In this document: piece after piece, positions 861 to 31,492 of the stretch | Numbering within the stretch: the first letter of the stretch is position 1 | How the letters are laid out: the number at the start of each line of letters is the position of its first letter | Virus record (IMG/VR): IMGVR_UViG_3300025687_003854 | Coordinates: 1 to 32,088 of that record | DNA from: a virus | Direction: 5' to 3' (one strand) | DNA: 32,088 nt | Notes under the pieces: model-generated | What the model was told of the DNA's origin: nothing | The model's input: only the letters and a program-made list of their open reading frames with translations | The model's database searches: none | Translations under genes and position numbers: made by a program

Positions 861-945
861 GCCCACGTGGTGAAATCGGTAAACACAAGGGACTTAAAAT
901 CCCTCGCTTTATGGCTTGTCAGTTCGAGTCTGACCGTGGGCACCA
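861..945 (+). tRNA. tRNA-Leu(TAA)
   Basis: Acceptor GCCCACG (861-867) pairs with CGTGGGC (935-941); discriminator A and encoded CCA (943-945). Anticodon loop CTTAAAA reads TAA. A long variable arm is consistent with a type II tRNA. First of a tight four-tRNA cluster. Confidence 0.93.
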
Positions 946-955
946 AGTTATAAAC

Positions 956-1031
956 GACCCCTTCGTCTAGTGGCCTAGGACAACGCCCTTTCACGGCGTA
1001 AACACGGGTTCGAGTCCCGTAGGGGTCACCA
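956..1031 (+). tRNA. tRNA-Glu(TTC)
   Basis: Acceptor GACCCCT (956-962) pairs with AGGGGTC (1021-1027). Anticodon stem ACGCC/GGCGT encloses CTTTCAC, anticodon TTC. T-arm GGGTTCGAGTCCC. CCA is encoded. Confidence 0.94.
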
Positions 1032-1037
1032 AGTTAA

Positions 1038-1114
1038 GGTCTCGTAGCTCAGCTGGATAGAGCAACAGCCTTCTAAGCTGTGGGTCGTAGGTTCGAATCC
1101 TACCGAGATCGCCA
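1038..1114 (+). tRNA. tRNA-Arg(TCT)
   Basis: Acceptor GGTCTCG/CGAGATC with one G-U pair. Anticodon stem ACAGC/GCTGT encloses CTTCTAA, anticodon TCT. T-loop TTCGAAT. CCA encoded at 1112-1114. Confidence 0.95.
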
Positions 1115-1117
1115 ATT

Positions 1118-1191
1118 TGGGGAATAGTTCAACGGTAGAGCGCAAGACTTTGACTCTTGAAATCCTGGTTCGAATCCAGGTTCCCCAGCCA
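1118..1191 (+). tRNA. tRNA-Gln(TTG)
   Basis: Acceptor TGGGGAA (1118-1124) pairs with TTCCCCA (1181-1187). Anticodon stem CAAGA/TCTTG encloses CTTTGAC, anticodon TTG. CCA encoded at 1189-1191. Confidence 0.94.
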
Positions 1192-1242
1192 AACTTTTTT
1201 ATAAGTATCAGTACACACACAAAGAGTCGGATTTACAATAGG

Positions 1243-1917
1243 ATGATATACATTTCACCGCCATTTGGTAATTATATTTCATTGCAAGACACAACACGCA
1301 TACGAGGCACGTTTACATATTATCGTAGGCCAGGTCTGGTATATCACACATTACGCTCATTACGTCCCATAAGAGGTGGATGGCGCAATCAGATTGGATT
1401 TCGTAACAAGGGTATTCATGCAGTTGATTTCACTGAACTGACTGACGTATACTCCATATGCGGTTTAAACGAGTATGAGTGGAATGCAATGCTCTTTCAC
1501 ATACCAAAACACACAAAACTTGAACTCAACCTGTCCTGTCCCAATGTCCCTACTATTAGCATATCTGATGACGCCATGCAAGCCTATTGCAATAGGTTTC
1601 CTGACCTGATCGCAAAGGTACGCTACGACATACCGAATACAGAGATAGATAAACTGGTGGATATGGGCGTGAAAACAATACACTGTAGCAACACCATACC
1701 AACACCCAAGGGCGGTATATCAGGTAGACAACTCAAAGAGGTTAATCTACCTAATATAGAACGAATAAGTAAACGAGTGAAAAGAGTTATCGCCGGGGGT
1801 GGCATATATACCTTCACTGATATGAAGGATTACGAACAGGCTGGTGCAAAGGATTTTTCCATCTCCACCATTCTGATATCCAAACCGTGGAACGTATCGG
1901 GACTATTGAGAACATGA
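1243..1917 (+). CDS. Dihydroorotate dehydrogenase-like protein, shortened (224 aa)
   Basis: Motifs of the FMN-dependent dihydroorotate dehydrogenase TIM barrel appear in the right order: GWRNQIGFRNKGI, then LNLSCPNV (family N-x-S-x-PN), a lysine in AKVRYD, HCSNT (orotate/FMN asparagine), KGGISGRQLK, and VIAGGGIYTFTDM followed by AGA near the C terminus. The enzyme family oxidises dihydroorotate to orotate in pyrimidine synthesis. At 224 residues the protein is about 100 shorter than cellular enzymes, with the loss mainly at the N terminus. An in-frame upstream ATG at 1117 lies at the edge of tRNA-Gln, so ATG 1243 is preferred although its ribosome-binding site is weak. The stop overlaps the next start (ATGA). 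Fold assignment is good; activity on dihydroorotate is uncertain. Confidence 0.7.
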   Translation: MIYISPPFGNYISLQDTTRIRGTFTYYRRPGLVYHTLRSLRPIRGGWRNQIGFRNKGIHAVDFTELTDVYSICGLNEYEWNAMLFHIPKHTKLELNLSCPNVPTISISDDAMQAYCNRFPDLIAKVRYDIPNTEIDKLVDMGVKTIHCSNTIPTPKGGISGRQLKEVNLPNIERISKRVKRVIAGGGIYTFTDMKDYEQAGAKDFSISTILISKPWNVSGLLRT

Positions 1918-2096
1918 ATAAAATAGACGAGTATAAGAATAAGATAAACTGGGATATATGGGAGGATATACAGAGGGTAGAGGAGAATGCGGAAGATGAT
2001 CCCTACGGCGAAACAAGCCCACAGGTTATTCTCGAGCGTGTAAAGAAGCTCAGTGGCAATACTAAGTCAGTTATTGGTAGTGCTATTAGTGCATAA
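1914..2096 (+). CDS. Hypothetical acidic protein, 60 aa
   Basis: Starts at ATG 1914, overlapping the stop of the dihydroorotate-dehydrogenase-like gene by ATGA, which suggests translational coupling. An in-frame ATG at 1887 lies well inside the upstream gene and is less likely. The product (MNKIDEYKNKINWDIWEDIQ...) is acidic, helical-looking and soluble, with no recognised motif. It ends just before tRNA-Gly(GCC). Confidence 0.6.
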   Translation: MNKIDEYKNKINWDIWEDIQRVEENAEDDPYGETSPQVILERVKKLSGNTKSVIGSAISA

Positions 2097-2102
2097 ATTA
2101 TT

Positions 2103-2176
2103 GCGGGTATGGTATAAAGGTATTACGACACGTTGCCAACGTGTAGACGACGGATCGTTCCCGTCTACCCGCTCCA
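2103..2176 (+). tRNA. tRNA-Gly(GCC)
   Basis: Acceptor GCGGGTA/TACCCGC. Anticodon stem ACACG/CGTGT encloses TTGCCAA, anticodon GCC. Encoded CCA at 2174-2176. The T-loop reads ATCGTTC rather than the usual TTCRANY, and the D-stem is only about 3 bp, so this is a divergent but foldable tRNA. Confidence 0.85.
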
Positions 2177-2181
2177 TTATA

Positions 2182-2257
2182 GGGCGATTAGCTCAGTTGG
2201 AAGAGCGTCTGGTTTACATCCAGAATGTCGGCAGTTCGAGCCTGTCATCGCCCACCA
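2182..2257 (+). tRNA. tRNA-Val(TAC)
   Basis: Acceptor GGGCGAT (2182-2188) pairs with ATCGCCC (2247-2253). Anticodon stem TCTGG/CCAGA encloses TTTACAT, anticodon TAC. Encoded CCA at 2255-2257. Confidence 0.94.
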
Positions 2258-2274
2258 TTTTTTAGGAGATAGAT

Positions 2275-2634
2275 ATGCAGAAGTTTGTAGTAGATTGCTG
2301 GAATGGTGTCATGAATCATAATCATAATCCTCTCAGACATATTCAAGATCTTCAGGTTAGACATATGGTACTTCAAGTACTAGCATGGATGTGGTGTCTA
2401 ATTTTTGCAATGAGCGTAGGTAGCTGGACAGTATGGGGTATTAGTGTAATTTCACATCTACTTCTTATTACAGGCATCGTAGTAACTGTAGGAACATTTA
2501 CAGCAGCGAAACGATCACCAAATAGTTTTGATTTTATCAAAGGTTACCATAGCGGCAGGAGCCGGAATACAGTTTGGATCAACGGCAAGCCCACAAAGCT
2601 ACCAGCTGGAGATCCAGGTGGTGAACACGAATAA
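2275..2634 (+). CDS. Small membrane protein with two predicted TM helices, 119 aa
   Basis: Starts at ATG 2275 after TAGGAG. Residues about 32-52 (LQVLAWMWCLIFAMSVGSW) and 54-75 (WGISVISHLLLITGIVVTVG) are long hydrophobic stretches separated by a short turn, giving a two-helix hairpin. The N terminus is His-rich and polar, and the C terminus is polar and Gly/Pro-rich (GDPGGEHE). It lies between tRNAs and another one-helix membrane protein, in an early-type region. A holin role is conceivable from topology alone but the gene is far from the endolysin. No family recognised. Confidence 0.65.
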   Translation: MQKFVVDCWNGVMNHNHNPLRHIQDLQVRHMVLQVLAWMWCLIFAMSVGSWTVWGISVISHLLLITGIVVTVGTFTAAKRSPNSFDFIKGYHSGRSRNTVWINGKPTKLPAGDPGGEHE

Positions 2635-2646
2635 AAGGAAATATAT

Positions 2647-2832
2647 ATGATTGACGTACTACAATATTCAAGTGTAATTCTTTTAAGTATTGCAGTTATT
2701 TGCTTGCTAGTAGTAAGTTTCTTAGATTGGCGATATGCGAAAGGTTTGGAAAAGCGTATTGCTGAACTAGAGTATAAGAACCAACATAAAGTCTTCACAG
2801 GACGAGCACCTGTTAGTCAGATAAAACCTTAG
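2647..2832 (+). CDS. Single-pass membrane protein, 61 aa
   Basis: Starts at ATG 2647 about 12 bases after the upstream gene, following an AAAGGAAA ribosome-binding site. Residues about 8-26 (SSVILLSIAVICLLVVSFL) form one transmembrane helix. The following segment (YAKGLEKRIAELEYKNQH) has a heptad-like pattern, so a short cytoplasmic coiled coil is likely. The helix-plus-coiled-coil layout resembles spanin or anchor-type phage peptides, but no lipobox or partner is adjacent. It forms a pair with the two-helix protein upstream and ends 8 bases before tRNA-Gly(TCC). Confidence 0.6.
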   Translation: MIDVLQYSSVILLSIAVICLLVVSFLDWRYAKGLEKRIAELEYKNQHKVFTGRAPVSQIKP

Positions 2833-2839
2833 TAACGTG

Positions 2840-2913
2840 GCGGGTATAGCATAGTGGTAATGCAGCAGCCTTCCAAGCCTCAGAGAGGAGTTCGATTCTC
2901 CTTACCCGCTCCA
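2840..2913 (+). tRNA. tRNA-Gly(TCC), imperfect anticodon stem
   Basis: Acceptor GCGGGTA/TACCCGC, T-arm AGGAG-TTCGATT-CTCCT, encoded CCA (2911-2913). The loop CTTCCAA gives anticodon TCC. The anticodon stem GCAGC/GCCTC has C-U and A-C mismatches in the middle, so stability may be reduced. Confidence 0.85.
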
Positions 2914-2929
2914 ACTAAATAAAATTGAC

Positions 2930-3481
2930 ATGATAGGTTTACGCACACTAGTTCTTAATGCAAACTATATGCCAGTAAGCATTTTCCCTTTACATACGAT
3001 TCCAATTGAAGATGCTATCACACGTATCTTTAATGGTAATATGCATGCAGTGTATAACTACAATCGTAAGATTGGACATCCTACACTAGACATGAACTGG
3101 CCTAGTGTAGTTGCTCGTAATCGAGGCACTAGAATCAAAGAGCGTGTTAGATTTGCACGTGATACTGTTTATTACAGAGATCATGGTATGTGTCAGTATT
3201 GCGAAACACCACTAGAGCTACAACAGACCACTTACGATCATGTTATTCCTAGAAGCAAAGGTGGCGAACATACCTGGGAAAACGTTGTTATGAGTTGTAA
3301 GAGTTGTAATAATGCAAAAGGTAACCGTATGCCTAAAGATACCTTTGTGCCCAGGCAGCGGCCATATCGGCCTACGTACTGGCAGCTTCTTGCTAATCGC
3401 CGTAAGTTTCCTATCACAGTGGATCACCCGAGTTGGGTGGATTTTTTTGGAGAGTGGGAAGCAGAAATTTATGTTAGATAG
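2930..3481 (+). CDS. HNH endonuclease, 183 aa
   Basis: The C-terminal half contains a zinc-supported HNH nuclease: CQYC (Cys 88 and 91), the catalytic DH of YDHVIPRSKGG at residues 103-104, the Asn in ENVV at 118, and CKSC (123, 126). The N-terminal 75 residues (LVLNANYMPVS...) match the extension typical of stand-alone bacterial and phage HNH proteins rather than an intron-encoded enzyme; no split gene or intron boundary is visible nearby. The family nicks or cuts DNA. No clear Shine-Dalgarno precedes ATG 2930. It sits among tRNA genes, a common place for phage homing-type nucleases, so a homing or genome-exclusion role is possible. Confidence 0.85.
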   Translation: MIGLRTLVLNANYMPVSIFPLHTIPIEDAITRIFNGNMHAVYNYNRKIGHPTLDMNWPSVVARNRGTRIKERVRFARDTVYYRDHGMCQYCETPLELQQTTYDHVIPRSKGGEHTWENVVMSCKSCNNAKGNRMPKDTFVPRQRPYRPTYWQLLANRRKFPITVDHPSWVDFFGEWEAEIYVR

Positions 3482-3482
3482 G

Positions 3483-3511
3483 TTGACACAGTATAAGTAA
3501 TATACTATTAT
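3483..3511 (+). promoter_or_regulatory. Early-type promoter before tRNA-Ala
   Basis: TTGACA (3483-3488), 17-bp spacer, TATTAT (3506-3511). Predicted start near 3518, directly before the Ala and Thr tRNAs and the exported-protein genes. Confidence 0.65.
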
Positions 3512-3524
3512 TATACTACAATAT

Positions 3525-3600
3525 GGGGATATAGCTCAGTTGGGAGAGCGATGGCTTTGCAAGCCATAGGTCAGGAGTTCGAGCCTCCTTATCTCCACCA
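3525..3600 (+). tRNA. tRNA-Ala(TGC)
   Basis: Acceptor GGGGATA (3525-3531) pairs with TATCTCC (3590-3596) with one G-U pair. Anticodon stem ATGGC/GCCAT encloses TTTGCAA, anticodon TGC. CCA encoded at 3598-3600. Confidence 0.95.
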
Positions 3601-3602
3601 TT

Positions 3603-3678
3603 GCCGGCGTGGCACAGTTGGTAGCGCAGTTGATTTGTAATCATCAGGTCGGGAGTTCGAATCTCTCCGCCGGCACCA
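3603..3678 (+). tRNA. tRNA-Thr(TGT)
   Basis: Acceptor GCCGGCG (3603-3609) pairs with CGCCGGC (3668-3674). The loop TTTGTAA gives anticodon TGT; the stem GTTGA/TCATC has one T-T mismatch. Encoded CCA at 3676-3678. Only two bases separate it from tRNA-Ala. Confidence 0.9.
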
Positions 3679-3706
3679 TTTTTTAAAGACTATGAAAGGT
3701 AGTCAA

Positions 3707-3964
3707 ATGAAAACATTAGTAGTAGTATCTACACTAGCATTATTAACAGCCTGTTCACCCGGACACATTGCCGCCAATAAAAACGGGAAGGCTGAATATG
3801 TTTGGGTAGGTTGCCATGTTGTTACTGAAAACCCAAGTTCAGATGGTTCTTATGTAATCGGACCATTAGGTGACCTTCCAGTAGGTGAAAAGTTCTATTT
3901 TAAGCAGGTTAACGACGATAGTACGGTTAGTCCTGTACTAAATGGAAAGCCCTGTGTCGACTAA
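3707..3964 (+). CDS. Predicted lipoprotein, 85 aa
   Basis: The N terminus MKTLVVVSTLALLTACS is a lipoprotein signal peptide: Lys, a hydrophobic core, then lipobox LTAC, so the mature protein would start at Cys 16 and be lipid-anchored. Two further cysteines (GCHV and KPCVD) could form a disulfide. ATG 3707 is preferred over the in-frame ATG 3692 because it follows AAGG (3697-3700) and places the charge directly before the core. It lies downstream of the early-type promoter at 3483 and overlaps the next frame by up to 23 bases. Lipoproteins of this kind in phages can act in superinfection exclusion, but nothing here proves that. Confidence 0.65.
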   Translation: MKTLVVVSTLALLTACSPGHIAANKNGKAEYVWVGCHVVTENPSSDGSYVIGPLGDLPVGEKFYFKQVNDDSTVSPVLNGKPCVD

Positions 3965-4157
3965 TGAACTAAAAGGCAGTTTAGATGATATTATGGATGA
4001 AGAGGACTGGGCTCTCATCTTTGATACGTCGGGCAGACTTAAAGGTATCTTTATACCCGAAGGCAAAAAAGAAGACGACGTCCCGCTACCAATTGTTGAA
4101 TTATTAAAACTATTTGATACGAGCTTAGACGATGCTGAAGACGCTACTATACACTAG
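3942..4157 (+). CDS. Hypothetical acidic protein, 71 aa
   Basis: The frame overlaps the end of the lipoprotein gene and the beginning of the next gene. ATG 3942 gives 71 residues; a GTG at 3954, preceded by GGAAAG, gives 67 and may be the true start. The product is strongly acidic (SLDDIMDEEDWALIFD, KKEDDVP, DTSLDDAEDATIH) with a short beta-like stretch GRLKGIFIPEG. No signal peptide, membrane segment or known domain. The tight overlaps indicate one translation-coupled unit with its neighbours. Confidence 0.55.
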   Translation: MESPVSTNELKGSLDDIMDEEDWALIFDTSGRLKGIFIPEGKKEDDVPLPIVELLKLFDTSLDDAEDATIH

Positions 4158-4581
4158 CGTAATTGCTTTTACTCTATCTAGTACCGCAGAGGCTTTTGAA
4201 GCAAATGGTAGTAGTAGAGTTCCTTTTAAGGTGCAGAGAGATCAGAACCTACGAGATCCTCAATATGCACAAGTTCCTATAGTACATATCGAGAATGTGT
4301 ATGGTTCTTCAGTTCAAATGAACAGTGGATACTACACTATCAAATGTGGGCATGAGCAGGTAAACGTCAACCCAACAGACCACAGAAATTGGTTTACACG
4401 TTTTGTTCATCCTAAACAGAACCATGTGTATGAGCATCAATACAACTGTCGTAAGGTGTATGAAGTTCAACAAGATTATAGCCCAAGTTATTGGGTATAC
4501 TACAAAATCTACGGACAGATGTATAAAATACAAATGGCTGATAGACCTGTAGGTAGATATATTACAGTACGTGTTAATTAA
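4132..4581 (+). CDS. Exported protein of unknown function, 149 aa
   Basis: The N terminus MLKTLLYTSVIAFTLSSTAEAF is a cleavable signal peptide with a likely site after AEA (about residue 21). The mature protein is aromatic- and His-rich with two cysteines (IKCGHEQ and YNCRKV) that could form a disulfide in the periplasm, and ends in a beta-like stretch YITVRVN. The gene overlaps the acidic protein by 26 bases and closes the tRNA/lipoprotein unit that begins at 3483. An envelope-acting role during infection is inferred from export plus early-type promotion. Family not recognised. Confidence 0.6.
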   Translation: MLKTLLYTSVIAFTLSSTAEAFEANGSSRVPFKVQRDQNLRDPQYAQVPIVHIENVYGSSVQMNSGYYTIKCGHEQVNVNPTDHRNWFTRFVHPKQNHVYEHQYNCRKVYEVQQDYSPSYWVYYKIYGQMYKIQMADRPVGRYITVRVN

Positions 4582-4585
4582 ATGG

Positions 4586-4613
4586 TTGACGTTGTCTGTA
4601 AAGATGTTATTAT
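4586..4613 (+). promoter_or_regulatory. Early-type promoter
   Basis: TTGACG (4586-4591), 16-bp spacer, extended -10 TGTTATTAT (4605-4613), the same layout as at 242. Predicted start near 4620, upstream of the gene at 4650. Confidence 0.7.
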
Positions 4614-4649
4614 ATATTTGTTGTTGAAACTTAACAAAGGACTAAAAGG

Positions 4650-4811
4650 ATGTCTGAAGTAGAATACGCCGCAAATGAAGCAGTCTTTGGATTGCAGTTG
4701 GATTGGGACAAGGCTGTGAGCTTTGTGGTCCGTAATGCAAAGACTGATAAGAGGACTGCACGAGCAGTCCTCAAGAAAGCAATGACTTCTTATAAACTAG
4801 ATGATAAATGA
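4650..4811 (+). CDS. Hypothetical small protein, 53 aa
   Basis: ATG 4650 directly follows AAAGGACTAAAAGG and the frame ends at TGA 4809-4811. The product MSEVEYAANEAVFGLQ... is predominantly helical, with a basic C-terminal half (KTDKRTARAVLKKA). It is the first gene behind the promoter at 4586, and the next gene starts 4 bases after its stop. No known domain. Small helical proteins in this position are typical of phage early regions. Confidence 0.6.
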   Translation: MSEVEYAANEAVFGLQLDWDKAVSFVVRNAKTDKRTARAVLKKAMTSYKLDDK

Positions 4812-4814
4812 ATA

Positions 4815-5033
4815 ATGGGCCAACTTGAAAGTAATGTAGTCGATGCTCGGGTAGAGTTTAGTGCCCGAGCATTGATAACCCGTGTAGAACGTAAGTTAGC
4901 AGAACACAACCAACTAGACATGTACGACGTATATGCCGAATGGTATCACGATGAACCAGGTAGCATTGAAATCTGGTTACGTGACCGCAGTGACGATAGT
5001 CGCATAGGTCCAGTTGATTTTCTTGCTATGTAA
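4815..5033 (+). CDS. Hypothetical protein, 72 aa
   Basis: Starts at ATG 4815 just after the upstream stop, most likely translationally coupled, and ends before tRNA-Ser. The protein is acidic with a helix (ARALITRVERKLAEHNQLD) followed by an acidic, Trp-containing segment (YDVYAEWYHDEPGSIEIWL). It has no membrane segments or catalytic motifs that I recognise. Confidence 0.55.
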   Translation: MGQLESNVVDARVEFSARALITRVERKLAEHNQLDMYDVYAEWYHDEPGSIEIWLRDRSDDSRIGPVDFLAM

Positions 5034-5041
5034 AAGGATTA

Positions 5042-5131
5042 GGTGAGGTGACTGAGAGGCCGAAAGTACACGTTTGCTAAATGTGCGAACCTTAACAGGT
5101 TCCGTGGGTTCGAATCCCACCCTCACCGCCA
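5042..5131 (+). tRNA. tRNA-Ser(GCT)
   Basis: Acceptor GGTGAGG (5042-5048) pairs with CCTCACC (5121-5127). Anticodon stem CACGT/ATGTG encloses TTGCTAA, anticodon GCT. A long variable arm (GCGAACCTTAACAGGTTC region) marks a type II tRNA. CCA encoded at 5129-5131. Confidence 0.93.
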
Positions 5132-23700: not shown

Positions 23701-24429
23701 TTATTTATCACCATAAATGTCTAACACCTCCCGAACGGCAGGGTGTCTTTCAATATCAGCATAGTCAAATGTTACAAAGTCAATAAACTGACTGTCCTTG
23801 TAACCATTGTAAAGTCTGCTAAAGTCAAGCAGTCCGTTCTGTGCTTCCTTACGATCGGTTTGCTGTACGTCACCTGTAACTACCATACGACTGTCATCTC
23901 CGATGCGTGTAAGTAGCATTTTCATTTGGTTTGGTGTAGCATTCTGCATTTCGTCAGCAATGATAAACGCATTTTTGAAGGTACGACCACGCATAAATGC
24001 AAGTGGTGAGATTTCAATAACCATCTCATCTATCATGTGTTTGATCTCTTTAGGTGAATAATACTCCTGGAATACGTCAAAGATTGGGCGTGTCCATGGC
24101 TCCATTTTACTGTTAATATCACCTGGTAAGAAGCCATGCCTTTCGTCATCTACACCCACAGCAGGGCGTGTGATAACTATTCGATCTATGTCACGTTGTC
24201 GCAGTGCTCGTATTGCAGCTTGCACTGCCAGCATGGTTTTGCCTGTACCAGCTGGTCCTGTTGCGAATACAATAACGTTTTGTTCGTTCAATAGTGATTG
24301 GATATATGTTTCTTGATTTAGATTGCGAGGTAAAAGAACTACCTGCTTTTTTCTTTCAATAAAAGACTCGATGTTAACAACGTTGGAGTTGTTATTCTTG
24401 TATGAACGTTTTGCATTTTTGCGACTCAT
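23701..24429 (-). CDS. phoH: PhoH-like P-loop ATPase, 242 aa
   Basis: Walker A GPAGTGKT (residues 58-65), the PhoH-specific ITRPAVGVDDERHGFLPGD, Walker B/DE box FIIADEMQN (Asp-Glu 159-160), and VVTGDVQQTD. These identify PhoH, an ATPase/helicase-like family found in very many marine phages, of debated function (RNA metabolism and phosphate stress have been proposed). Starts at ATG 24429 after AGGAGG. Divergent from the PP-loop gene, with a late-type palindromic box in the intergenic region. Confidence 0.93.
   Translation of the reverse strand: MSRKNAKRSYKNNNSNVVNIESFIERKKQVVLLPRNLNQETYIQSLLNEQNVIVFATGPAGTGKTMLAVQAAIRALRQRDIDRIVITRPAVGVDDERHGFLPGDINSKMEPWTRPIFDVFQEYYSPKEIKHMIDEMVIEISPLAFMRGRTFKNAFIIADEMQNATPNQMKMLLTRIGDDSRMVVTGDVQQTDRKEAQNGLLDFSRLYNGYKDSQFIDFVTFDYADIERHPAVREVLDIYGDK
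23702..23709 (-). promoter_or_regulatory. Late promoter box on the minus strand, overlapping the phoH stop
   Basis: On the minus strand it reads GATAAATA. Its TAA is the stop codon of the PhoH gene. It directs the beta-sandwich gene starting at 23666. Confidence 0.65.
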
Positions 24430-24496
24430 TTAATGTTTCCTCCTGAGTTAGAAGAGACACAATGACCCGCAAGTCTACAAATTTTACATGAGGCAT
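24392..24496 (-). CDS. Possible 34-aa leader ORF overlapping phoH
   Basis: On the minus strand GGAGG is followed four bases later by ATG (24496-24494), then 34 codons (MPHVKFVDLRVIVSLLTQEE...) to TAA at 24394-24392, overlapping phoH in another frame and covering its ribosome-binding site. It lies downstream of the minus-strand late box at about 24515-24521. The good ribosome-binding site is the main support; it may be a leader peptide or chance. Confidence 0.3.
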   Translation of the reverse strand: MPHVKFVDLRVIVSLLTQEETLNESQKCKTFIQE

Positions 24497-24509
24497 TGTG
24501 CCTCCTTTC

Positions 24510-24521
24510 ATAAATATTTAT
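24510..24521. promoter_or_regulatory. Palindromic late box, possibly bidirectional
   Basis: ATAAATATTTAT is its own reverse complement, so it contains an ATAAATA late core on both strands (plus 24510-24516; minus 24521-24515), between the divergent phoH and PP-loop genes. Confidence 0.6.
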
Positions 24522-24549
24522 TGACAAGACCATGGAGTTATAGTATAGT
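24521..24549 (+). promoter_or_regulatory. Sigma70-like promoter before the PP-loop gene
   Basis: TTGACA (24521-24526), 17-bp spacer, TATAGT (24544-24549). The start would be at about 24556, at the ATG of 24557. Confidence 0.6.
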
Positions 24550-24556
24550 ATATATT

Positions 24557-25669
24557 ATGGATTATTTCAATGCTAGGCCAACATATTGTGCAGACAATGG
24601 TTACACAAGCAATCGCTTGTTGGATTTTGCATCTCACGGCTATGAACTTAAACAAGAGTATGTACAATATGTACAAGCTATTGCCGAAACGAGGCAAATA
24701 CATAGAGATCATGTCCCAGATCCGATTTTAAAATCTCCTATAAATGGTGTTGAACTGTTGCACGATGATATTAAATTAAACAAAGCTCAGCCAATTACAG
24801 ATTTTGATACACTTACAGAATCGTTAGAGGCTAAACTTAGACGTAATATTCGTACATTAGAAGATAAAAACTGCCTGTTAATGTTAAGTGGAGGCATTGA
24901 TAGTCAACTTTTGCTAGCTTTATTGGAAGATGAAGACATTAGATTTGATTGCATGCACATTATAATGGATGATACGGAACAACAGACTGCAAAAACTCTA
25001 GTAAGCAAATACGGTAAGAAATGTTATTTTGTACAAGATTTAGACATGTCGCGACAAGAGCTGATAGATTCGATAAAAATTTACAATCCGCCTACACAAG
25101 TTATTGGCGCCGCTCTTGATTATCAATGGGCAAAAATATTAAAGTCACTAGACTTGAGCGAATATGATTGTATTGTAAATGGTTTTGAATCAGCAGCAAT
25201 GCTTGGTCAGAAGGTATGGCCATTGTACGCACAAGATACAACAGATTTTAGCCACCTAAACAGCCAGTTCGAATACAAAGACTGGAAATTTGATCAAAAA
25301 CAAAAGAACTATCTATTGTACAATTATAGGTTAGACCACAAAGCACTGTTAAAAGCAAAAGGAAAGTCGGGACGAAATTATCATGTTTTGGAATCTGCAG
25401 GTCTGCCAATTTATAGTCCTTATGCATCTCAAGACATACTTGAATCAGCACTTGCACTGTCAGATGATATTGCTATCAGAAACGTATATAAAGACCCACA
25501 AATTGCTATATTAAAACGTATGAACATACAACCTATACTTACTGGTGGACGATTTGTACTTTATCCTGCAACTAAGATATACAAATTAAAATGTAATTTA
25601 TCAGATATACATATCATATGGTCTAGCCATTATAATGCTAACCTAAATGGCTTCAGCAAAGGGCAATAA
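24557..25669 (+). CDS. PP-loop ATPase, asparagine-synthase-like, 370 aa
   Basis: The PP-loop SGGIDS at residues 111-116 (MLSGGIDSQLLLALLED) binds ATP and adenylates a carboxylate, as in the C-terminal domain of class B asparagine synthetase. The N-terminal glutaminase domain (Cys 2) is missing, so nitrogen would come from elsewhere or the product may not be asparagine. Motif NGFESAAMLG fits the fold. The in-frame ATG at 24488 is rejected because it precedes the promoter. No ribosome-binding site; see the leaderless finding. The end overlaps the minus-strand SGNH gene by 27 bases. Genes of this type in phages may modify surface glycans or small molecules. Confidence 0.75.
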   Translation: MDYFNARPTYCADNGYTSNRLLDFASHGYELKQEYVQYVQAIAETRQIHRDHVPDPILKSPINGVELLHDDIKLNKAQPITDFDTLTESLEAKLRRNIRTLEDKNCLLMLSGGIDSQLLLALLEDEDIRFDCMHIIMDDTEQQTAKTLVSKYGKKCYFVQDLDMSRQELIDSIKIYNPPTQVIGAALDYQWAKILKSLDLSEYDCIVNGFESAAMLGQKVWPLYAQDTTDFSHLNSQFEYKDWKFDQKQKNYLLYNYRLDHKALLKAKGKSGRNYHVLESAGLPIYSPYASQDILESALALSDDIAIRNVYKDPQIAILKRMNIQPILTGGRFVLYPATKIYKLKCNLSDIHIIWSSHYNANLNGFSKGQ

Positions 25670-26419
25670 CTTACATGCAAAATTTTCGTGTGCAGGTTCT
25701 AGAGGATGGGTAGCACCAAAAGGATATCCTCCCTCTTGTGCCCATTTAAAGAAACCACAAAACTTGCCAGGATTATATATTTTGGTTAGGTCTAGGCTGT
25801 CATAAAGTGTTTTTAGATAACTGTCCATTGGTGTGTTATGGTCAAATATACAATCATCTACGTAGGTATACACGTATTTGATGTTACGCTGTTTAAGCCA
25901 GTCCTGTAAAAACACCATCTCTTTTACAGTAGTATACAGTTCATAATATTCGCTGTCACCTACATCCTTAAAGAAGTGTTCGCTAAAGTCTGCTAGTCCT
26001 GTGGATTGCGCTGTAAGTTGATTGCGTTTATAGTGATCAAATACAGTTTCTTTGAAGTTTTTAAACGCATCTAGTATAACACTTTGATCACGTTCATGCG
26101 TCCAAGGTGTAATAGTGTACCATGGTGCGTCACGTTCGTGTGTATCATAAGTGAATCTAAATTCATAGCGACTAGGAAAACTCCACATGACAGTAACAAA
26201 TATGTTGTGTCCTTGCTCTATATGCTTTTGGCATGCTGTCATAGTCCTACGTGCTATAGCACTGTTACCATGTCCTCCCCAGGCAGTACAATCGTAGCTC
26301 ATTTCCATATGATCTGCTAAATTGCTTGCCCAAGTTCTTATACTAAACCTATTAGGTGTGGCGTCGTCGAGTTCATTACCATATGTAAAACTGTCACCGC
26401 CTGAGATTAATATTGTCAT
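25643..26419 (-). CDS. SGNH/GDSL-like hydrolase-fold protein, 258 aa
   Basis: Block I GGDSFTYG puts the nucleophile Ser at residue 10; block II-like WGGHGNSA is at 47-54 (Gly and Asn); the C terminus has HPLEPAH (residues 238-244), which resembles the block V His. This is the SGNH fold of esterases and lipases, but the catalytic Asp is not evident, so it may be a non-hydrolytic or acyl-transfer member. ATG 26419 has no obvious ribosome-binding site; the late-type palindrome at 26449 lies upstream. Convergent with the PP-loop gene and divergent from the methyltransferase. Confidence 0.7.
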   Translation of the reverse strand: MTILISGGDSFTYGNELDDATPNRFSIRTWASNLADHMEMSYDCTAWGGHGNSAIARRTMTACQKHIEQGHNIFVTVMWSFPSRYEFRFTYDTHERDAPWYTITPWTHERDQSVILDAFKNFKETVFDHYKRNQLTAQSTGLADFSEHFFKDVGDSEYYELYTTVKEMVFLQDWLKQRNIKYVYTYVDDCIFDHNTPMDSYLKTLYDSLDLTKIYNPGKFCGFFKWAQEGGYPFGATHPLEPAHENFACKLLPFAEAI

Positions 26420-26448
26420 TGATTATGTAACCATTATATGCTACTATT

Positions 26449-26460
26449 ATAAATATTTAT
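26449..26460. promoter_or_regulatory. Palindromic late box between divergent genes
   Basis: ATAAATATTTAT, with TATAAATA on the plus strand at 26448-26455. As at 24510, both strands have the late core, between the SGNH-like (-) and methyltransferase (+) genes. The plus start would be near 26461, next to GGAG before ATG 26471. Confidence 0.65.
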
Positions 26461-26470
26461 TGGAGTTGAA

Positions 26471-27148
26471 ATGAACCTTAAAATTCTTAATGAAGTAGAA
26501 CACATGCTTCAAACAAGCCCACAGGCTGTTCGGAATTGTAGCAAACTAAAACAACTTGTGCGTGGTATATTTGACGTTGAGTTAAGGAGTACAACCTTTA
26601 CTTCAGTGTACGATCTCACAGAAGAAATTGACAGCCTTGTGTTGGACAAATACTTTAGAAATGTGTGGCAACCTGAAACTAAAAAGTTTAAGTACAGCGG
26701 GCTCAAAGTTATTGAAGAAGTTAATGCATTAAACCCTAGAGCAGTGTTAGATATTGGCTGCGGTTATAATGAGTTTAAAGGTAAGATTCCAAATCTCATG
26801 GGTATTGATCCCTATAACAGTTGTGCTGATATTGAGGTAGGGCTACTCGACTATCATACTGATACCAAGTTCGATGTAGTAATAGCACTGGGCAGTATTA
26901 ACTTTGGTAGTACAGATAAGATATTTGCAGAACTAGAGAAAGCAGTTGGTTTGTGTGCACCAGGTGCTGTGATGTTCTTTAGAGTAAATCCTGGACATCA
27001 GCACGACAAACCCGAAGCACGTTGGATTACATTCTATCCATGGAACTCAAACTTTATTATTAACTGTGCAGATCATTTTAACGTAGATGTACTAGACCTA
27101 CGTAACGATTCAAATAATCGTATGTACTTTGTTTGGCGTACTAAATAA
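26471..27148 (+). CDS. SAM-dependent methyltransferase, 225 aa
   Basis: Class I methyltransferase motif I AVLDIGCGYNEF (residues 91-102), followed by LMGIDPYN (the acidic residue of motif II) and DVVIALGSINFGS. The N-terminal 85 residues are helical. Starts after GGAG. The substrate is unknown; its position among PP-loop, SGNH and sulfotransferase-like genes suggests that a small-molecule or surface modification is involved. Late-type promoter upstream. Confidence 0.78.
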   Translation: MNLKILNEVEHMLQTSPQAVRNCSKLKQLVRGIFDVELRSTTFTSVYDLTEEIDSLVLDKYFRNVWQPETKKFKYSGLKVIEEVNALNPRAVLDIGCGYNEFKGKIPNLMGIDPYNSCADIEVGLLDYHTDTKFDVVIALGSINFGSTDKIFAELEKAVGLCAPGAVMFFRVNPGHQHDKPEARWITFYPWNSNFIINCADHFNVDVLDLRNDSNNRMYFVWRTK

Positions 27149-27149
27149 A

Positions 27150-27183
27150 GTTGGTAACGCAGACTGCGGTCTAGTTCACCAAC
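27150..27183 (+). repeat. Symmetric hairpin with a 5x5 internal loop
   Basis: GTTGGT (27150-27155) pairs with ACCAAC (27178-27183); inside, AGAC-TGCG-GTCT forms a second stem. Left loop AACGC and right loop AGTTC are five bases each. Not followed by a T-run, so a structured leader is more likely than a terminator. Confidence 0.5.
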
Positions 27184-27202
27184 AATCCTAAAAGGAATAA
27201 CC

Positions 27203-27730
27203 ATGTTACCCGTAAGACATTTCTTCACGGGTGCGCCTGGTAGTCGTTGGAGTGGCGTTGCCCAAGACATAGAAGCAAGTGGCTTCTACGACACATCAGA
27301 TCGTACCCCAGAACGCACATATAAACATAACGAATTCTCAGGACATGTTGGTGCTTACTTTGGCACTGGTATGGAGTTTCCTGCGAGTTTGGAACCTGAG
27401 GTGCTGGATGCACCTTATAAAGGAATAGGCACGCGACTGCACAAGAGTCATGAGTGGGCGTATATGCTTGACGATATTGTTGAGCAGTATCCTAATTGTT
27501 GGATTACATTATTATACAGAGAAGATTACAAGTGTTTGAATTGGTGGTTACAAGCAGGTGGCTTTGATATAACATATCCTAACTACGACATGTATCAAAA
27601 CGAATCAGTAATGTTAAGCATGATAGGCGCACAAAATCATCACATACTTGAGTTTGCACACAAGCACAGGCTAACATGGCATCATATTGACAGTCATGCA
27701 GACGTATTGAAAGCAACATGGAAACAGTAG
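27203..27730 (+). CDS. Sulfotransferase-like protein, 175 aa
   Basis: N terminus HFFTGAPGSRWSGVA resembles the PAPS-binding 5'-phosphosulfate loop (TGxPRSGTT) with Gly replacing one residue; the later KSHEWAYMLDDI and PNCWITLLYRED (a Ser/Arg pair region) fit the fold loosely. Such enzymes move sulfate from PAPS to hydroxyls of sugars or small molecules. AAAAGGAATAACC precedes ATG 27203; a hairpin lies in the leader. Its end overlaps the TctA start by 13 bases. Family call is tentative because the usual 3'-PB motif is not clear. Confidence 0.5.
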   Translation: MLPVRHFFTGAPGSRWSGVAQDIEASGFYDTSDRTPERTYKHNEFSGHVGAYFGTGMEFPASLEPEVLDAPYKGIGTRLHKSHEWAYMLDDIVEQYPNCWITLLYREDYKCLNWWLQAGGFDITYPNYDMYQNESVMLSMIGAQNHHILEFAHKHRLTWHHIDSHADVLKATWKQ

Positions 27731-29142
27731 CAGCACTAGTAGCCGGAACTCTTTACGGACTTGTAATTGGTATAATACCCAGTGCAGGTGCTACTACTGG
27801 TTTGGTTGCACTTTTTGGTGTGATACATTACTTTGTTAATGAACCTTACCTAGGTGTAATATTTTTAATGGCAGTGGTTGCGGCAAGCACAACAGGTGAT
27901 AGTTTTACAGGTATTCTACTGGGCATACCAGGTGCTAACAGTGCAGCCGCTACCATGGTAGATGGCTTTCCATTCGCACAACAGGGCAGAGCAAGTTATG
28001 CAATCAGTGCCGCAGTAACAACAAGCACCGTAAATGGGTTGCTCTGGGGATGTCTAGTATTCCTACTATTGCCCTGGTATACCAACTTACTAATAATATT
28101 AGGCATACCTGAACTGTGGGCGTTTATAGTTCTTGCACTTGCTACAGTAGGTTTTGTAAGTAACAGTTATTGGATTAGAAGTTTAGTTGCTATTTGTGCA
28201 GGAATATTCCTAGGACTAGTAGGTGTTAATCCAGAAACAAATGCACCACGTTTTACATTAGGCTGGTTCTATTTGCAGGATGGCATACAGTTAATGCCTG
28301 TAGTTGCCGGTTTGTTTGCAGTACCAGAACTCATAGCTGGTTTACAACGTACAAGTACAGCACGTATTGCTCACAATGAACTTTGGCAAGGTGTTAGAGC
28401 AACATGGGAACATCGTTGGCTAGCATTACGCGGCGGCTTTATAGGTGCATTCATTGGCCTATTACCAGGACTAGGCGGCGCAATGGCAGACTGGATGGCA
28501 TACGGCAGTGCAGTAGCAGCAAACCCTAAAGAAAAGTTTGGCAATGGCAACATCAAAGGCGTGATAGGACCAGAGGGTGCTAACAATGCACAAAAGGCTA
28601 CTAGCATGATACCAACAGTGCTATTTGGTATACCTGGTGCTCCGTTTGCTGCGGTGTTAATGGCATTGTTCATGTACCTAAACTTTGAATTAGGCACACC
28701 AGACATTGCAGCAGACACAGAGTTTTTTACAAGTATGAGCTTTGGCTTTTTAGCAGCAACAGTGTTAGTTGCGCTACTTTGCCTAGTATTCATCAAACCA
28801 ATTACACAAATTTGTACAGTACCTTACAAGTATTATTTTCCGTTCCTGTTATTTGTTATCATATGGGCATGTATGCAGTACACAGGAGGATGGCAAGATC
28901 TAGCAGTATTAGCAGCATTTAGCGTGTTGGGCATGATATGCAAACACTATAAGTTTAGCAGACCAGCACTACTAATGGCGTTTATACTAGCAGACAAGAT
29001 TGAGAGTTTTACCCTACAGCTCGCAAGTCTTTATTCAGTAGGGGATTTAATAACGAGACCTATCTTTATGGCAGTGATGCTGTTTACTGTAGGTATCTTC
29101 ATATATAGTTTAAAAAGGAAAGGATCCATCGATTATGCGTAA
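27718..29142 (+). CDS. tctA: TctA-like permease subunit of the tripartite tricarboxylate transporter, 474 aa
   Basis: Highly hydrophobic protein with many TM helices and the TctA signatures GIPSAGATTGLVALFG near the start, GIPGANSAAATMVDGFPFA and GLVGVNPETNAPRFTLGWFY followed by LQDGIQLMPVVAGLFAVPEL, and a second GLLPGLGGAMADWMAYG plus GPEGANNAQKATSMIPTVLF repeat half. Length fits TctA (about 490-505). With a periplasmic binding protein it imports carboxylates such as citrate, coupled to ion gradients. ATG 27718 overlaps the upstream stop and its end overlaps the binding-protein gene by 8 bases, so the module is one operon. Strong identification. Confidence 0.92.
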   Translation: METVAALVAGTLYGLVIGIIPSAGATTGLVALFGVIHYFVNEPYLGVIFLMAVVAASTTGDSFTGILLGIPGANSAAATMVDGFPFAQQGRASYAISAAVTTSTVNGLLWGCLVFLLLPWYTNLLIILGIPELWAFIVLALATVGFVSNSYWIRSLVAICAGIFLGLVGVNPETNAPRFTLGWFYLQDGIQLMPVVAGLFAVPELIAGLQRTSTARIAHNELWQGVRATWEHRWLALRGGFIGAFIGLLPGLGGAMADWMAYGSAVAANPKEKFGNGNIKGVIGPEGANNAQKATSMIPTVLFGIPGAPFAAVLMALFMYLNFELGTPDIAADTEFFTSMSFGFLAATVLVALLCLVFIKPITQICTVPYKYYFPFLLFVIIWACMQYTGGWQDLAVLAAFSVLGMICKHYKFSRPALLMAFILADKIESFTLQLASLYSVGDLITRPIFMAVMLFTVGIFIYSLKRKGSIDYA

Positions 29143-30178
29143 ATTATTATTAGCACTAACCGTAATGCTATTTGCAACACCAGCACTAGCAGACTACACA
29201 CTTATTGTACCACAAAAGCCAGGTGGCGGTACAAGCGTCTGGGCACAGATTGTTGCTGCAGAATGGGAAAAGCACCTAGGCGAAAAGATTGTCATCAAGC
29301 ACATTCCAGGTGCTCGTGACATTCCAGGCTTTAATGAGTACCACAATAACTTACAGAACGACCCAAAGACAATTATGGTATCACATGGTGGTAACGGTGT
29401 AAGTTTCCTACAGGAACAAGTAGATTACAACTACGCTGACTATGACAGTGTAGGACTTATGAACTTGAATATTATCTCAGGTATCCGCAAGGACTACAAG
29501 GCGGGAGACAAGATCAAGTTCGCAGCAGGATCAGGCATGGTACCAGAAGGACTTGCTATCGCACAGTTACTATGCGGTAACCTAGCTAGTATTGATGCAT
29601 ATACAGCATGCTTTAAAGATAAGGTCATATGGGTACCAGGTATGAGCGGTGGTCAGCGTAGACTAGCGTTCAAACGTGGCGAGCTCAATGGTACTAGAGA
29701 AAATCCAGCAGCATACAAGAAGCACGTAGAATCAAATGCAGATGCAAAGTTGTGGTTCACACACGGCATTCTACAAAAGGATGGCTCACATGCTGACGAT
29801 CCAAACTACCCAGGCTATCAGTTCGAGATCCTATTTGAAAAGCGTTGGGGAGAAAAGCCCGACAATGTTCTCTACCCTGCTTACAAGCTAGTTAAGAGTT
29901 TCCGTGACGGCTTACAAAAAGCACTATGGGTAGGCAAGGGTAATCCAAACCTAGATCATTTGCGTAAGACACTTACAGCAATGACACGTGATCCAGCTAG
30001 TGTAAAGGCTATTCAAGCAAAAGTTGGTGACTATGAATGGCTAGTGGGTTATGCTGGCAATCAGCAGCGTGACACACTAATGACATTTGTTACAGCAGAT
30101 GCCCTAAAGACACTTGTTGAATTTAACACAAGTGCTTTTGGACTCAAGAGTGTTTATAAACCTGAACTTGTCAAGTAA
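29135..30178 (+). CDS. tctC: TctC/Bug-family periplasmic binding protein, 347 aa
   Basis: Signal peptide MRKLLLALTVMLFATPALA (19 residues), then the Bug/TctC ligand-binding core IVPQKPGGGTSVWAQIVAAE with EKIVIKHIPGARDIPGF (family GGxxDxxAR... and NxxGAGG region). Length fits Bug proteins (about 320). These catch the carboxylate substrate in the periplasm and hand it to the TctA/TctB membrane complex. The divergent insert IAQLLCGNLASIDAYTACFK has two cysteines. AAAGGA is just upstream; the gene overlaps the permease end by 8 bases and its stop TAA is followed at once by the next ATG. Substrate cannot be read from sequence. Confidence 0.88.
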   Translation: MRKLLLALTVMLFATPALADYTLIVPQKPGGGTSVWAQIVAAEWEKHLGEKIVIKHIPGARDIPGFNEYHNNLQNDPKTIMVSHGGNGVSFLQEQVDYNYADYDSVGLMNLNIISGIRKDYKAGDKIKFAAGSGMVPEGLAIAQLLCGNLASIDAYTACFKDKVIWVPGMSGGQRRLAFKRGELNGTRENPAAYKKHVESNADAKLWFTHGILQKDGSHADDPNYPGYQFEILFEKRWGEKPDNVLYPAYKLVKSFRDGLQKALWVGKGNPNLDHLRKTLTAMTRDPASVKAIQAKVGDYEWLVGYAGNQQRDTLMTFVTADALKTLVEFNTSAFGLKSVYKPELVK

Positions 30179-30396
30179 TGGTAGTATATGTAAAGTATGC
30201 AAGTGCAGTGATCATTCTTTGTGCGATGGTCCTGCACGTTGCAGGCATTACGCCTTGGAACAGCATACTACAGCTTTTAGGTATTGCAGGCTGGACTTAT
30301 GTAGGCTTTAAGTGGAATGAAAAGGCTATTTTACTTAACTTTATGCCACAGGTACTGATAATCGTACCTATGCTCATATACCTTTATTTGTTATAA
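30178..30396 (+). CDS. Small membrane protein of the transporter module, 72 aa
   Basis: Starts at the base after the overlapping TctC stop. Two to three hydrophobic helices: VKYASAVIILCAMVLHVAG, SILQLLGIAGWTYVGFKWN and LLNFMPQVLIIVPMLIYLYL. In TTT systems the small subunit TctB is about 150 residues with four helices; this protein is half that length, so it is either a reduced TctB equivalent or a separate small component. The stop codon TAA lies inside the late box at 30392. Its placement as third gene directly after tctA-tctC argues that it is part of the transporter. Confidence 0.65.
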   Translation: MVVYVKYASAVIILCAMVLHVAGITPWNSILQLLGIAGWTYVGFKWNEKAILLNFMPQVLIIVPMLIYLYLL

Positions 30397-30399
30397 ATA
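30392..30399 (+). promoter_or_regulatory. Late promoter box overlapping a stop codon
   Basis: TATAAATA, the full T4 late consensus; its TAA (30394-30396) is the stop of the small membrane protein. Predicted start near 30405, before ATG 30418. Confidence 0.7.
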
Positions 30400-30417
30400 C
30401 AATATAAGGGTATTAAT

Positions 30418-30960
30418 ATGGATATCAAAGACATCGTTGAAAACAGCAAGAAGATTTATATGAGCGAAAGTGCTCTAGAAACTCTCATGGACTTTGAGCG
30501 TGTACTAGACGAGCTTGATCTTTATGCATTTAAGAATTGGAAAAAGGGCGAACTTATTGAAGGTCCTATTAAACACAGACATTGGGTAGAAGCTACATTT
30601 ATGTGGCCACACAAGCTAATGCCTGATCCAGACGGTGCTAAGAGACTGTTAGAGTATCGCTCTAAAGTTGAGTATAAAAAGGACAAACTTAGTACACCAG
30701 TAAAAGTCGAGTCACCCAGTGATTTCCGTCCAGGCACTAAAAAGCCCAAACTAAAAGAAGATCCTGTTTGGACAGTTCGTATCCAAATGCCCCTCGAAGT
30801 TATGACAGATATTAGAGAAGGCTTTATTGAACTTGAAGGTCAGGAAATTGATCTCAAGGATCTAGATGATGCTTATGATCAAAACATGCAAGACACAACA
30901 GCAATGACAGCACAACAGGGTGCTATGCCAGGAGATCCAAATGCCCTCCCAACAGCTTAA
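30418..30960 (+). CDS. Hypothetical late phage protein, 180 aa
   Basis: Late-type promoter box at 30392 and AAGGG in the leader. N terminus MDIKDIVENSKKIYMSESAL, then ETLMDFERVLDELDLY and WKKGELIEGPIKHRHWVEAT, an alpha-beta fold with no active-site motif that I recognise. The C terminus is Gln/Ala/Pro-rich and probably disordered. It overlaps the next gene's start by 20 bases, so the two are coupled. Late promotion and the endolysin context suggest a structural or assembly protein; I cannot name it. Confidence 0.6.
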   Translation: MDIKDIVENSKKIYMSESALETLMDFERVLDELDLYAFKNWKKGELIEGPIKHRHWVEATFMWPHKLMPDPDGAKRLLEYRSKVEYKKDKLSTPVKVESPSDFRPGTKKPKLKEDPVWTVRIQMPLEVMTDIREGFIELEGQEIDLKDLDDAYDQNMQDTTAMTAQQGAMPGDPNALPTA

Positions 30961-31492
30961 TGAAGCACTAGAAGCACAGGATCTCGCAGGAAGAGTTAGT
31001 AAGAAAATACACATTGACGAGTTCTCAAGTAAGATGGGCGACGACAGTGATGTAATTGTTACTACATTTAAAGTATTTGGAAAACAACCTGCAAACGACC
31101 TAGAACGTTTCCTAGAGCGTGGTTACAGTTGGATACTTGATGCAGAAACATCACCTGGTGAAATTGCCAAAGATGAATATCTAGTGTTTGTAGAGTGCGA
31201 ACGTCGTAGCTGGTATCCTCAAAAACTAATGAGCTTGATTGGCGATTTAACCAATCTCACTGAGCATGAACAAGATGCTTGGCAGGTTATGTACTTCCAA
31301 GACAAGCGTAACCCCACCTACAAACTAAACACCAAGAGTTTAAATCAAATTGTACCTCTTAGCCCACGCAACTATCGTGAAGCAAAGGGTGCAAAGAACG
31401 TACTAGAAAGTATGTTAAATTCAGCACGTATATCAAGAAAACAAGGAGACATCGATGGATTTACAGCGTTTGAGAGAAGACCTCGAGACTGA
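30941..31492 (+). CDS. Hypothetical late phage protein, 183 aa
   Basis: ATG 30941 follows CAGGAGATCCAA; an upstream in-frame ATG at 30920 is inside the previous gene without a ribosome-binding site. The product begins MPSQQLNEALEAQDLAGRVS and contains IVTTFKVFGKQPANDLERFL and YLVFVECERRSWYPQKLMSL, a beta-alpha pattern conserved-looking but not assigned. Ends in a basic tail (RISRKQGDIDGF) and overlaps the lysozyme by 38 bases. Part of the late unit from 30392. Confidence 0.6.
   Translation: MPSQQLNEALEAQDLAGRVSKKIHIDEFSSKMGDDSDVIVTTFKVFGKQPANDLERFLERGYSWILDAETSPGEIAKDEYLVFVECERRSWYPQKLMSLIGDLTNLTEHEQDAWQVMYFQDKRNPTYKLNTKSLNQIVPLSPRNYREAKGAKNVLESMLNSARISRKQGDIDGFTAFERRPRD

Follow-up and report, generated by a model that had tools for sequence, protein, structure and literature searches.

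A phage tctA-tctC gene pair with no tctB nearby: a probable two-gene importer and its separable DUF6552 neighbour

Can a phage carry a tripartite tricarboxylate transporter (TTT) that has dispensed with its small membrane subunit, TctB? The question is raised by a locus in IMG/VR record IMGVR_UViG_3300025687_003854, positions 1 to 32,088; this whole stretch of 32,088 nt is referred to as the window. The initial annotation described a three-gene TTT module in a phage, consisting of a TctA-like permease, a TctC/Bug binding protein with a signal peptide, and a 72-residue membrane protein regarded as an unusually small third component. The three genes are listed below with the ratio of non-synonymous to synonymous substitution rates (dN/dS) of the first two.

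27718..29142, + strand: tctA-like permease gene, 474 aa (PF01970; glycine motifs; dN/dS 0.07-0.11)
29135..30178, + strand: tctC-like (Bug-type) solute-binding protein gene, 347 aa (identified by Foldseek and by profile against cellular TctC; dN/dS 0.06-0.10)
30178..30396, + strand: gene of a 72-aa DUF6552 membrane protein (PF20189; separable from tctA-tctC)

The genes overlap as annotated, tctA and tctC by 8 nt and tctC and the 72-aa open reading frame (ORF) by 1 nt. The comparisons described here make it probable that the locus is a phage-encoded two-gene TTT-type importer without TctB, and that the DUF6552 gene is separate cargo. A tctA-tctC cassette on a phage genome is thus retained from the initial annotation, and the three-gene unit is not, as the DUF6552 gene is separable.

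Identity and conservation of the permease and the binding protein

Judged by its sequence, the first ORF is a genuine full-length TctA, as annotated. It matches PF01970 at E 1.6e-94 (317 bits) over profile positions 2-422 of 423. The TctA family is characterized by a duplicated motif, G-Hy3-G-Hy3-G-Hy2-P-G-Hy-G (PMC5812351). The second copy is complete in the window protein (G239-G243-G247-P250-G251-G253), and in the first copy, G10-G14-G18-P21-S-A-G24, serine replaces the glycine after the proline. The 474-aa permease stops right after the TctA domain and has no TctB-like extension. No relevant TctA template turned up when the PDB was searched by sequence.

The TctC-like protein has no match in Pfam, PHROG or NCBIfam. 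The Pfam TctC profile (PF03401) leaves it unmatched and reaches just one of 30 homologues, weakly, at E 0.045; the cellular TctC of L213, encoded beside tctAB, is likewise without a Pfam TctC match. The AlphaFold model of the window protein has a predicted local distance difference test score (pLDDT) of 91, and its 17 best PDB matches in Foldseek are all of TctC/Bug type (E 4e-12 to 1e-8). In addition, a profile of phage TctC matches cellular TctC at up to 92 bits, E 4.7e-28. By predicted fold and by profile, the second ORF is therefore identified as a genuine TctC/Bug binding protein that has diverged past the reach of Pfam. Its N-terminus (MRKLLLALTVMLFATPALA, followed by DY) looks like the annotated signal peptide when judged by eye. 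The two cysteines pointed out earlier, Cys147 and Cys159, are each found in 28/30 homologues and are both absent in L048 and L049. Both are kept or lost together; a structural disulfide is more likely than a ligand role, and the C147-C159 pair probably forms one.

The dN/dS values were obtained by comparing the window genes with six relatives; for the 72-aa gene, the value of 0.16-0.19 comes from the three comparisons in which dS was computable. Such low ratios argue that none of the three is a chance ORF, and tctA and tctC are under strong purifying selection. The reading frames are intact in the relatives examined, so the frame disruption that the initial annotation had named as a warning sign was not encountered. 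Viral loci were collected via TctA and via DUF6552 searches and yield a redundant set of 149 tctA/tctC pairs. In 124 of these, tctA is followed by tctC within 60 nt, with the exact 8-nt overlap in 78 and other spacings in 46; the remaining pairs are up to 2.5 kb apart (18) or reversed (seven).

TctB and the cellular relatives of the pair

The Pfam TctB profile matches in 0/45 tctA-bearing viral records. Since even fused cellular TctB scores weakly with this profile, a custom TctB profile was built from 19 fused C-terminal parts. As a positive control, it recovers many stand-alone bacterial TctB genes, with E down to 2.5e-28. In the viral loci its best value is E 0.008, and its weak matches there are ORFs of loci that yielded no tctA. 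An ORF of 90-260 aa with at least three hydrophobic helices within 1.5 kb is present in just one of the 56 non-identical tctA-tctC loci. On these searches the phage pair has no TctB near it, and the pair thus lacks what a complete tripartite TTT requires.

Two kinds of small ORF were considered as alternative TctB proteins and rejected. A 117-aa three-helix ORF of one phage group (L022-L026, L036) lies after tctC or a few genes off (L023:7964-8317, L025:10190-10543, L036:8237-8590); its L023 copy has no Pfam match, and it is absent from most loci. ORFs with a single, LTPFLFLGLVLFYIIIGIP-like hydrophobic stretch are located between tctA and tctC, with a length of 46 aa (L022:4225-4365, L023:6433-6573) or 70 aa (L302:4524-4736, L303:2860-3072). 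These are limited to few loci, and the 70-aa ones reach E 0.34 with the TctB profile. It is possible that the 46/70-aa ORFs encode a micro-subunit.

In a TctA tree, made by a quick method and with long branches, 26/26 phage representatives and three contigs of metagenome-assembled genomes (MAGs) form one clade (Shimodaira-Hasegawa-like approximate likelihood ratio test, SH-aLRT, 100; stem of 1.87 changes per site). Among the three MAG contigs (L142, L143, L144), gene context is known for L143 only. This 7.9-kb contig of a public Pelagibacter MAG (CAJQJC010000036.1) carries a phage-clade tctA-tctC with neighbours as in the viral loci, and its place in the MAG is probably a binning error. All other TctA proteins in 117 Pelagibacterales and 398 Pseudomonadota genomes are at most 36% identical to phage TctA. 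The best of these matches (33-36% identity) are permeases of 650-680 aa with a TctB-like C-terminal part, which matches PF07331 at E 1.4e-6 in L145 and more weakly in the others; the phage permease ends where this TctB domain begins. The best cellular TctC matches, at 65-92 bits with the phage profile, adjoin the same tctAB fusions. TctA and TctC, scored separately, give the same cellular subfamily and therefore both point to it, so that by these scores the nearest kin of both phage proteins are cellular systems of TctC plus a TctA-TctB fusion. The phage line may either have lost the TctB part or have branched before the fusion. The nearest cellular relatives include Pelagibacterales, which is no proof of the host.

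These relatives bear on the idea that phage TctA and TctC recruit the TctB of a host TTT and form a phage-host hybrid transporter. Partners would be widespread, as cellular TTT is common (TctA relatives in 39/117 Pelagibacterales and 132/398 Pseudomonadota genomes), and TctB, whose function is unknown, shows poor conservation (PMC5812351), which could permit loose partnering. However, the nearest cellular systems, with TctB fused to TctA, have no free TctB to lend, and the low identity of phage to cellular TctA also argues against such a hybrid, which is considered unlikely.

The DUF6552 neighbour and the phage setting

The 72-aa protein matches PF20189 (DUF6552) at E 3.2e-11 (43.8 bits, cut-off 27), as do 42/42 of its homologues. 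Its model (pLDDT 94) consists of three hydrophobic helices (2-22, 27-45, 49-71), in agreement with the membrane protein annotated. Neither Pfam scans of the protein and its 42 homologues nor the fusion-TctB profile gave a TctB match. The gene order that the initial annotation proposed to look for in marine viral genomes is conserved as far as tctA then tctC; the 72-aa gene accompanies them in 18/56 non-identical loci with at least 1.5 kb on both sides, and in 16/40 whole tctA records. The reverse comparison gives a similar picture. Relatives of the 72-aa protein are encoded by 175 stretches of the viral collection, and tctA is nearby in 28 of the 77 DUF6552-found viral loci that were read. When 36 DUF6552 records without an intact tctA nearby were searched whole, four matched TctA, three of them above the cut-off. 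In TTT-less phages, the DUF6552 gene often lies 3' of a sulfotransferase-like gene with a 4-nt overlap (L080, L083 and L093), and a marine single-cell phage record with psbA also has a DUF6552 gene, with no tctA near it. DUF6552 was found in 4/24 bacterial genomes examined, and the four main contexts read are without TTT genes. In one of them, a Pelagibacter MAG (L207:740-964), the gene adjoins an aquaporin-like gene and a GcrA-like regulator.

As the DUF6552 gene separates from tctA-tctC in both directions, the conserved module consists of two genes, not three, and the 72-aa gene is most likely a separate cargo neighbour unrelated to the missing subunit. The three-gene alternative, in which the 72-aa protein would serve as a small membrane subunit, a reduced counterpart of TctB, draws on the position of the gene directly 3' of tctC (1-nt overlap in the window; 37 pairs at 60 nt or less in the redundant set) and on a small, three-helix membrane protein under purifying selection. 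It is nonetheless improbable, given the separability described above, the TTT-less and psbA-carrying phages, the cellular homologues beside unrelated genes, and a family that is DUF6552 and not TctB. The protein also has three helices, compared with the 4-5 of TctB. It was rejected as TctB on separability and family, and as far as these comparisons reach, an unusually small third component is not supported.

The 72-aa protein also gives weak SemiSWEET signals. MtN3_slv is matched at E 0.016 in 2/42 homologues, and SemiSWEET chains recur among non-significant Foldseek matches of the model (Z 5-6), below MIT-domain matches. A Trp and an Asn are placed as in SemiSWEET helices 2-3; generic three-helix bundles match equally well or better.

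Scanned with the TctA alignment, IMG/VR yielded 560 stretches that encode a relative. The best 80 of the 560 are all at least 63% identical to the window protein, and the remaining 480 may include bacterial contamination. In cultured phage records, TctA matches are only 26-29% identical, with none of this clade, and TctC has no match. The neighbours of the pair vary: methyltransferase-like and sulfotransferase-like genes lie before or after it, and the DUF6552 gene is adjacent, one gene off, or absent. Loci L066 and L006 share flanks, and L066 holds a divergent, reversed tctC-tctA pair in the slot of the L006 tctA-tctC. Relative to L006, the window genes tctC and tctA have diverged at synonymous sites by 0.29 and 0.50, compared with 2.08 for the flanking virion gene. 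The slot swap and the lower dS of the pair suggest that phages pass it to one another as a cassette within variable cargo islands. The divergent phage TctA-TctC subclade, with tctC first, is seen in L066:976-3630, L076, L090 and L095, and its TctA is ~45% identical.

Surface-altering cargo genes are common in phages, and the pair might accordingly not feed the cell at all, with TctC or TctA altering the envelope, for example by masking a receptor or excluding other phages. Such a role is very unlikely, since it does not fit two subunits of one transporter that stay together across divergent phages, with family motifs and with strong purifying selection on each.

The pair lies in a cargo island of the window, with the following neighbouring features.

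24430..30417, no strand: cargo island, bounded by the phoH-like gene and a virion protein gene
23701-24429, - strand: phoH-like gene, left flank of the island
27203..27730, + strand: sulfotransferase-like gene, 175 aa (motifs by inspection only)
30418-30960, + strand: first virion protein gene, right flank of the island
30418..31492, + strand: two virion structural protein genes (phrog_12928, E 2.2e-31; phrog_13138, E 9.1e-20)

Genes for baseplate, DNA polymerase, clamp-loader and virion proteins lie on the same contig, and, gene by gene, its nearest cultured relatives are jumbo phages. The clamp loader is 56% identical to that of PA5oct-like phages and 48% to that of Phosso, and a virion protein has homologues in PA5oct, Phosso, Atu_ph07 and 121Q. 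The window and PA5oct, a Pseudomonas phage, share one gene order: DnaE-like, GroES, clamp loader, a conserved gene of unknown function, PhoH, and a pair of virion genes. The PhoH and virion homologues of PA5oct adjoin directly; in the window they are separated by ~6 kb of cargo including tctA-tctC. Synteny with PA5oct and Phosso exists on both sides of the tctA-tctC locus, the window is PA5oct-like jumbo-type phage DNA, and the bacterial contig that the initial annotation had kept in view is therefore excluded. A bacterial contig or assembly artefact miscalled viral can practically be dismissed even though TctA and TctC are bacterial families and three similar loci occur in bacterial MAGs, because the phage genes and synteny are joined by dozens of independent viral contigs and by the phage-locus neighbour genes of MAG contig L143. 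As members of cellular metabolic families on a bona fide phage genome, tctA and tctC are classed from their sequences as putative phage auxiliary metabolic genes.

The sulfotransferase-like gene overlaps tctA by 13 nt; its 175-aa protein has no match in Pfam or PHROG. It often adjoins tctA and, in other phages, the DUF6552 gene. Further island cargo comprises QueC/asparagine-synthase-like (24488-25669), DUF6071-like (25643-26419, - strand) and methyltransferase-like (26471-27148) genes, and the methyltransferase-like and sulfotransferase-like genes turn up again by tctA in many phages. Right after tctC in L020 (7478-8315) are an adenosine 5'-phosphosulfate (APS)-kinase-like gene (PF01583, E 2.8e-7) and a nucleotidyltransferase-like ORF; together with the sulfotransferase-like neighbour, these genes are a hint that some phage TTT pairs lie close to genes of sulfur chemistry. 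Ten tRNA genes (Leu, Glu, Arg, Gln, two Gly, Val, Ala, Thr, Ser) are located at window positions 861-5131.

The two-gene importer among known transport systems

In the preferred reading of a two-gene importer, periplasmic TctC would capture an extracellular carboxylate and pass it to TctA, which would import it by ion-coupled symport during infection. Transport competence, direction, ion coupling, substrate and use in infection are here proposed by analogy with characterised TTT. In this reading the phage line lacks TctB, and the pair has evolved as one phage-specific clade that moves among phages as a cassette.

Several points weigh against this picture. The carboxylate pincer PFxAGGxxD, which holds one carboxylate, is almost ubiquitous in TctC proteins (PMC5812351). 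The site reads PQKPGGGTS in phage TctC, with P and both G retained and F, A and D changed; therefore the ligand or its coordination may differ, and the ligand may be no classical carboxylate. A distinct ligand, as suggested in the initial annotation, is possible. TctB evolves fast and most records are fragments, so that a very diverged or distant TctB may exist, and the complex might gain its TctB from the host. The similar-looking tripartite ATP-independent periplasmic (TRAP) transporters require their small subunit, and the sufficiency of TctA and TctC without TctB is debated (PMC5812351). That a minimal TctA-TctC transporter works without TctB from either phage or host is a more tentative proposal; it is a serious possibility, although we lean slightly against it.

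Kept by selection across hundreds of viral contigs, a TctA-TctC pair free of TctB offers a natural test of the role of TctB. If the pair is indeed TctB-independent, TctB would be dispensable for binding-protein-dependent transport, and organic-acid import would be a common trait of marine jumbo-type phages. Phages may in this way broaden the organic-acid diet of infected cells, by means of a putative importer family that is common in marine viral sequence and not present in any cultured phage searched.

Earlier reports already place TTT-type genes on contigs of marine viruses. On viral contigs of SUP05, tctA was noted as a domain hit only (PMC4164917), and tricarboxylate-transport genes lie around norB/nirK on a myovirus scaffold from an oxygen-minimum zone (PMC8115048); the relevant passages of these two reports describe no conserved pair, clade or missing TctB. 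In the open-access literature searched, viral tctA or tricarboxylate transport is mentioned only in passing, and no conserved TctB-less phage tctA-tctC pair was found in it. Such a pair, as recognized here by sequence comparison, appears to be the new element. The 72-aa protein is a member of Pfam DUF6552 (PF20189), a family for which the bacteria examined show no link to TTT.

Among characterized systems, tctCBA of Salmonella and bctCBA of Bordetella (TC 2.A.80) share the TctA domain and motif and the TctC/Bug fold with the phage pair. In contrast to them, the phage pair has no TctB gene, a reversed gene order, a TctC beyond PF03401, and PQKPGGGTS instead of PFxAGGxxD. Archaea are known to have TctA without partners; their stand-alone homologues (arCOG04469) occur without TctB (PMC5898192). 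They resemble the phage system in the absence of TctB, whereas most of them also lack TctC, which the phage keeps. The highest-scoring cellular relatives remain the bacterial TTT systems with a fused TctA-TctB and a separate TctC, such as the Pelagibacterales locus L213 (tctC - tctAB - prpF). In these the permease of 650-690 aa includes the TctB-like part and tctC comes first, whereas the phage permease of 474 aa is without that part and tctA comes first.

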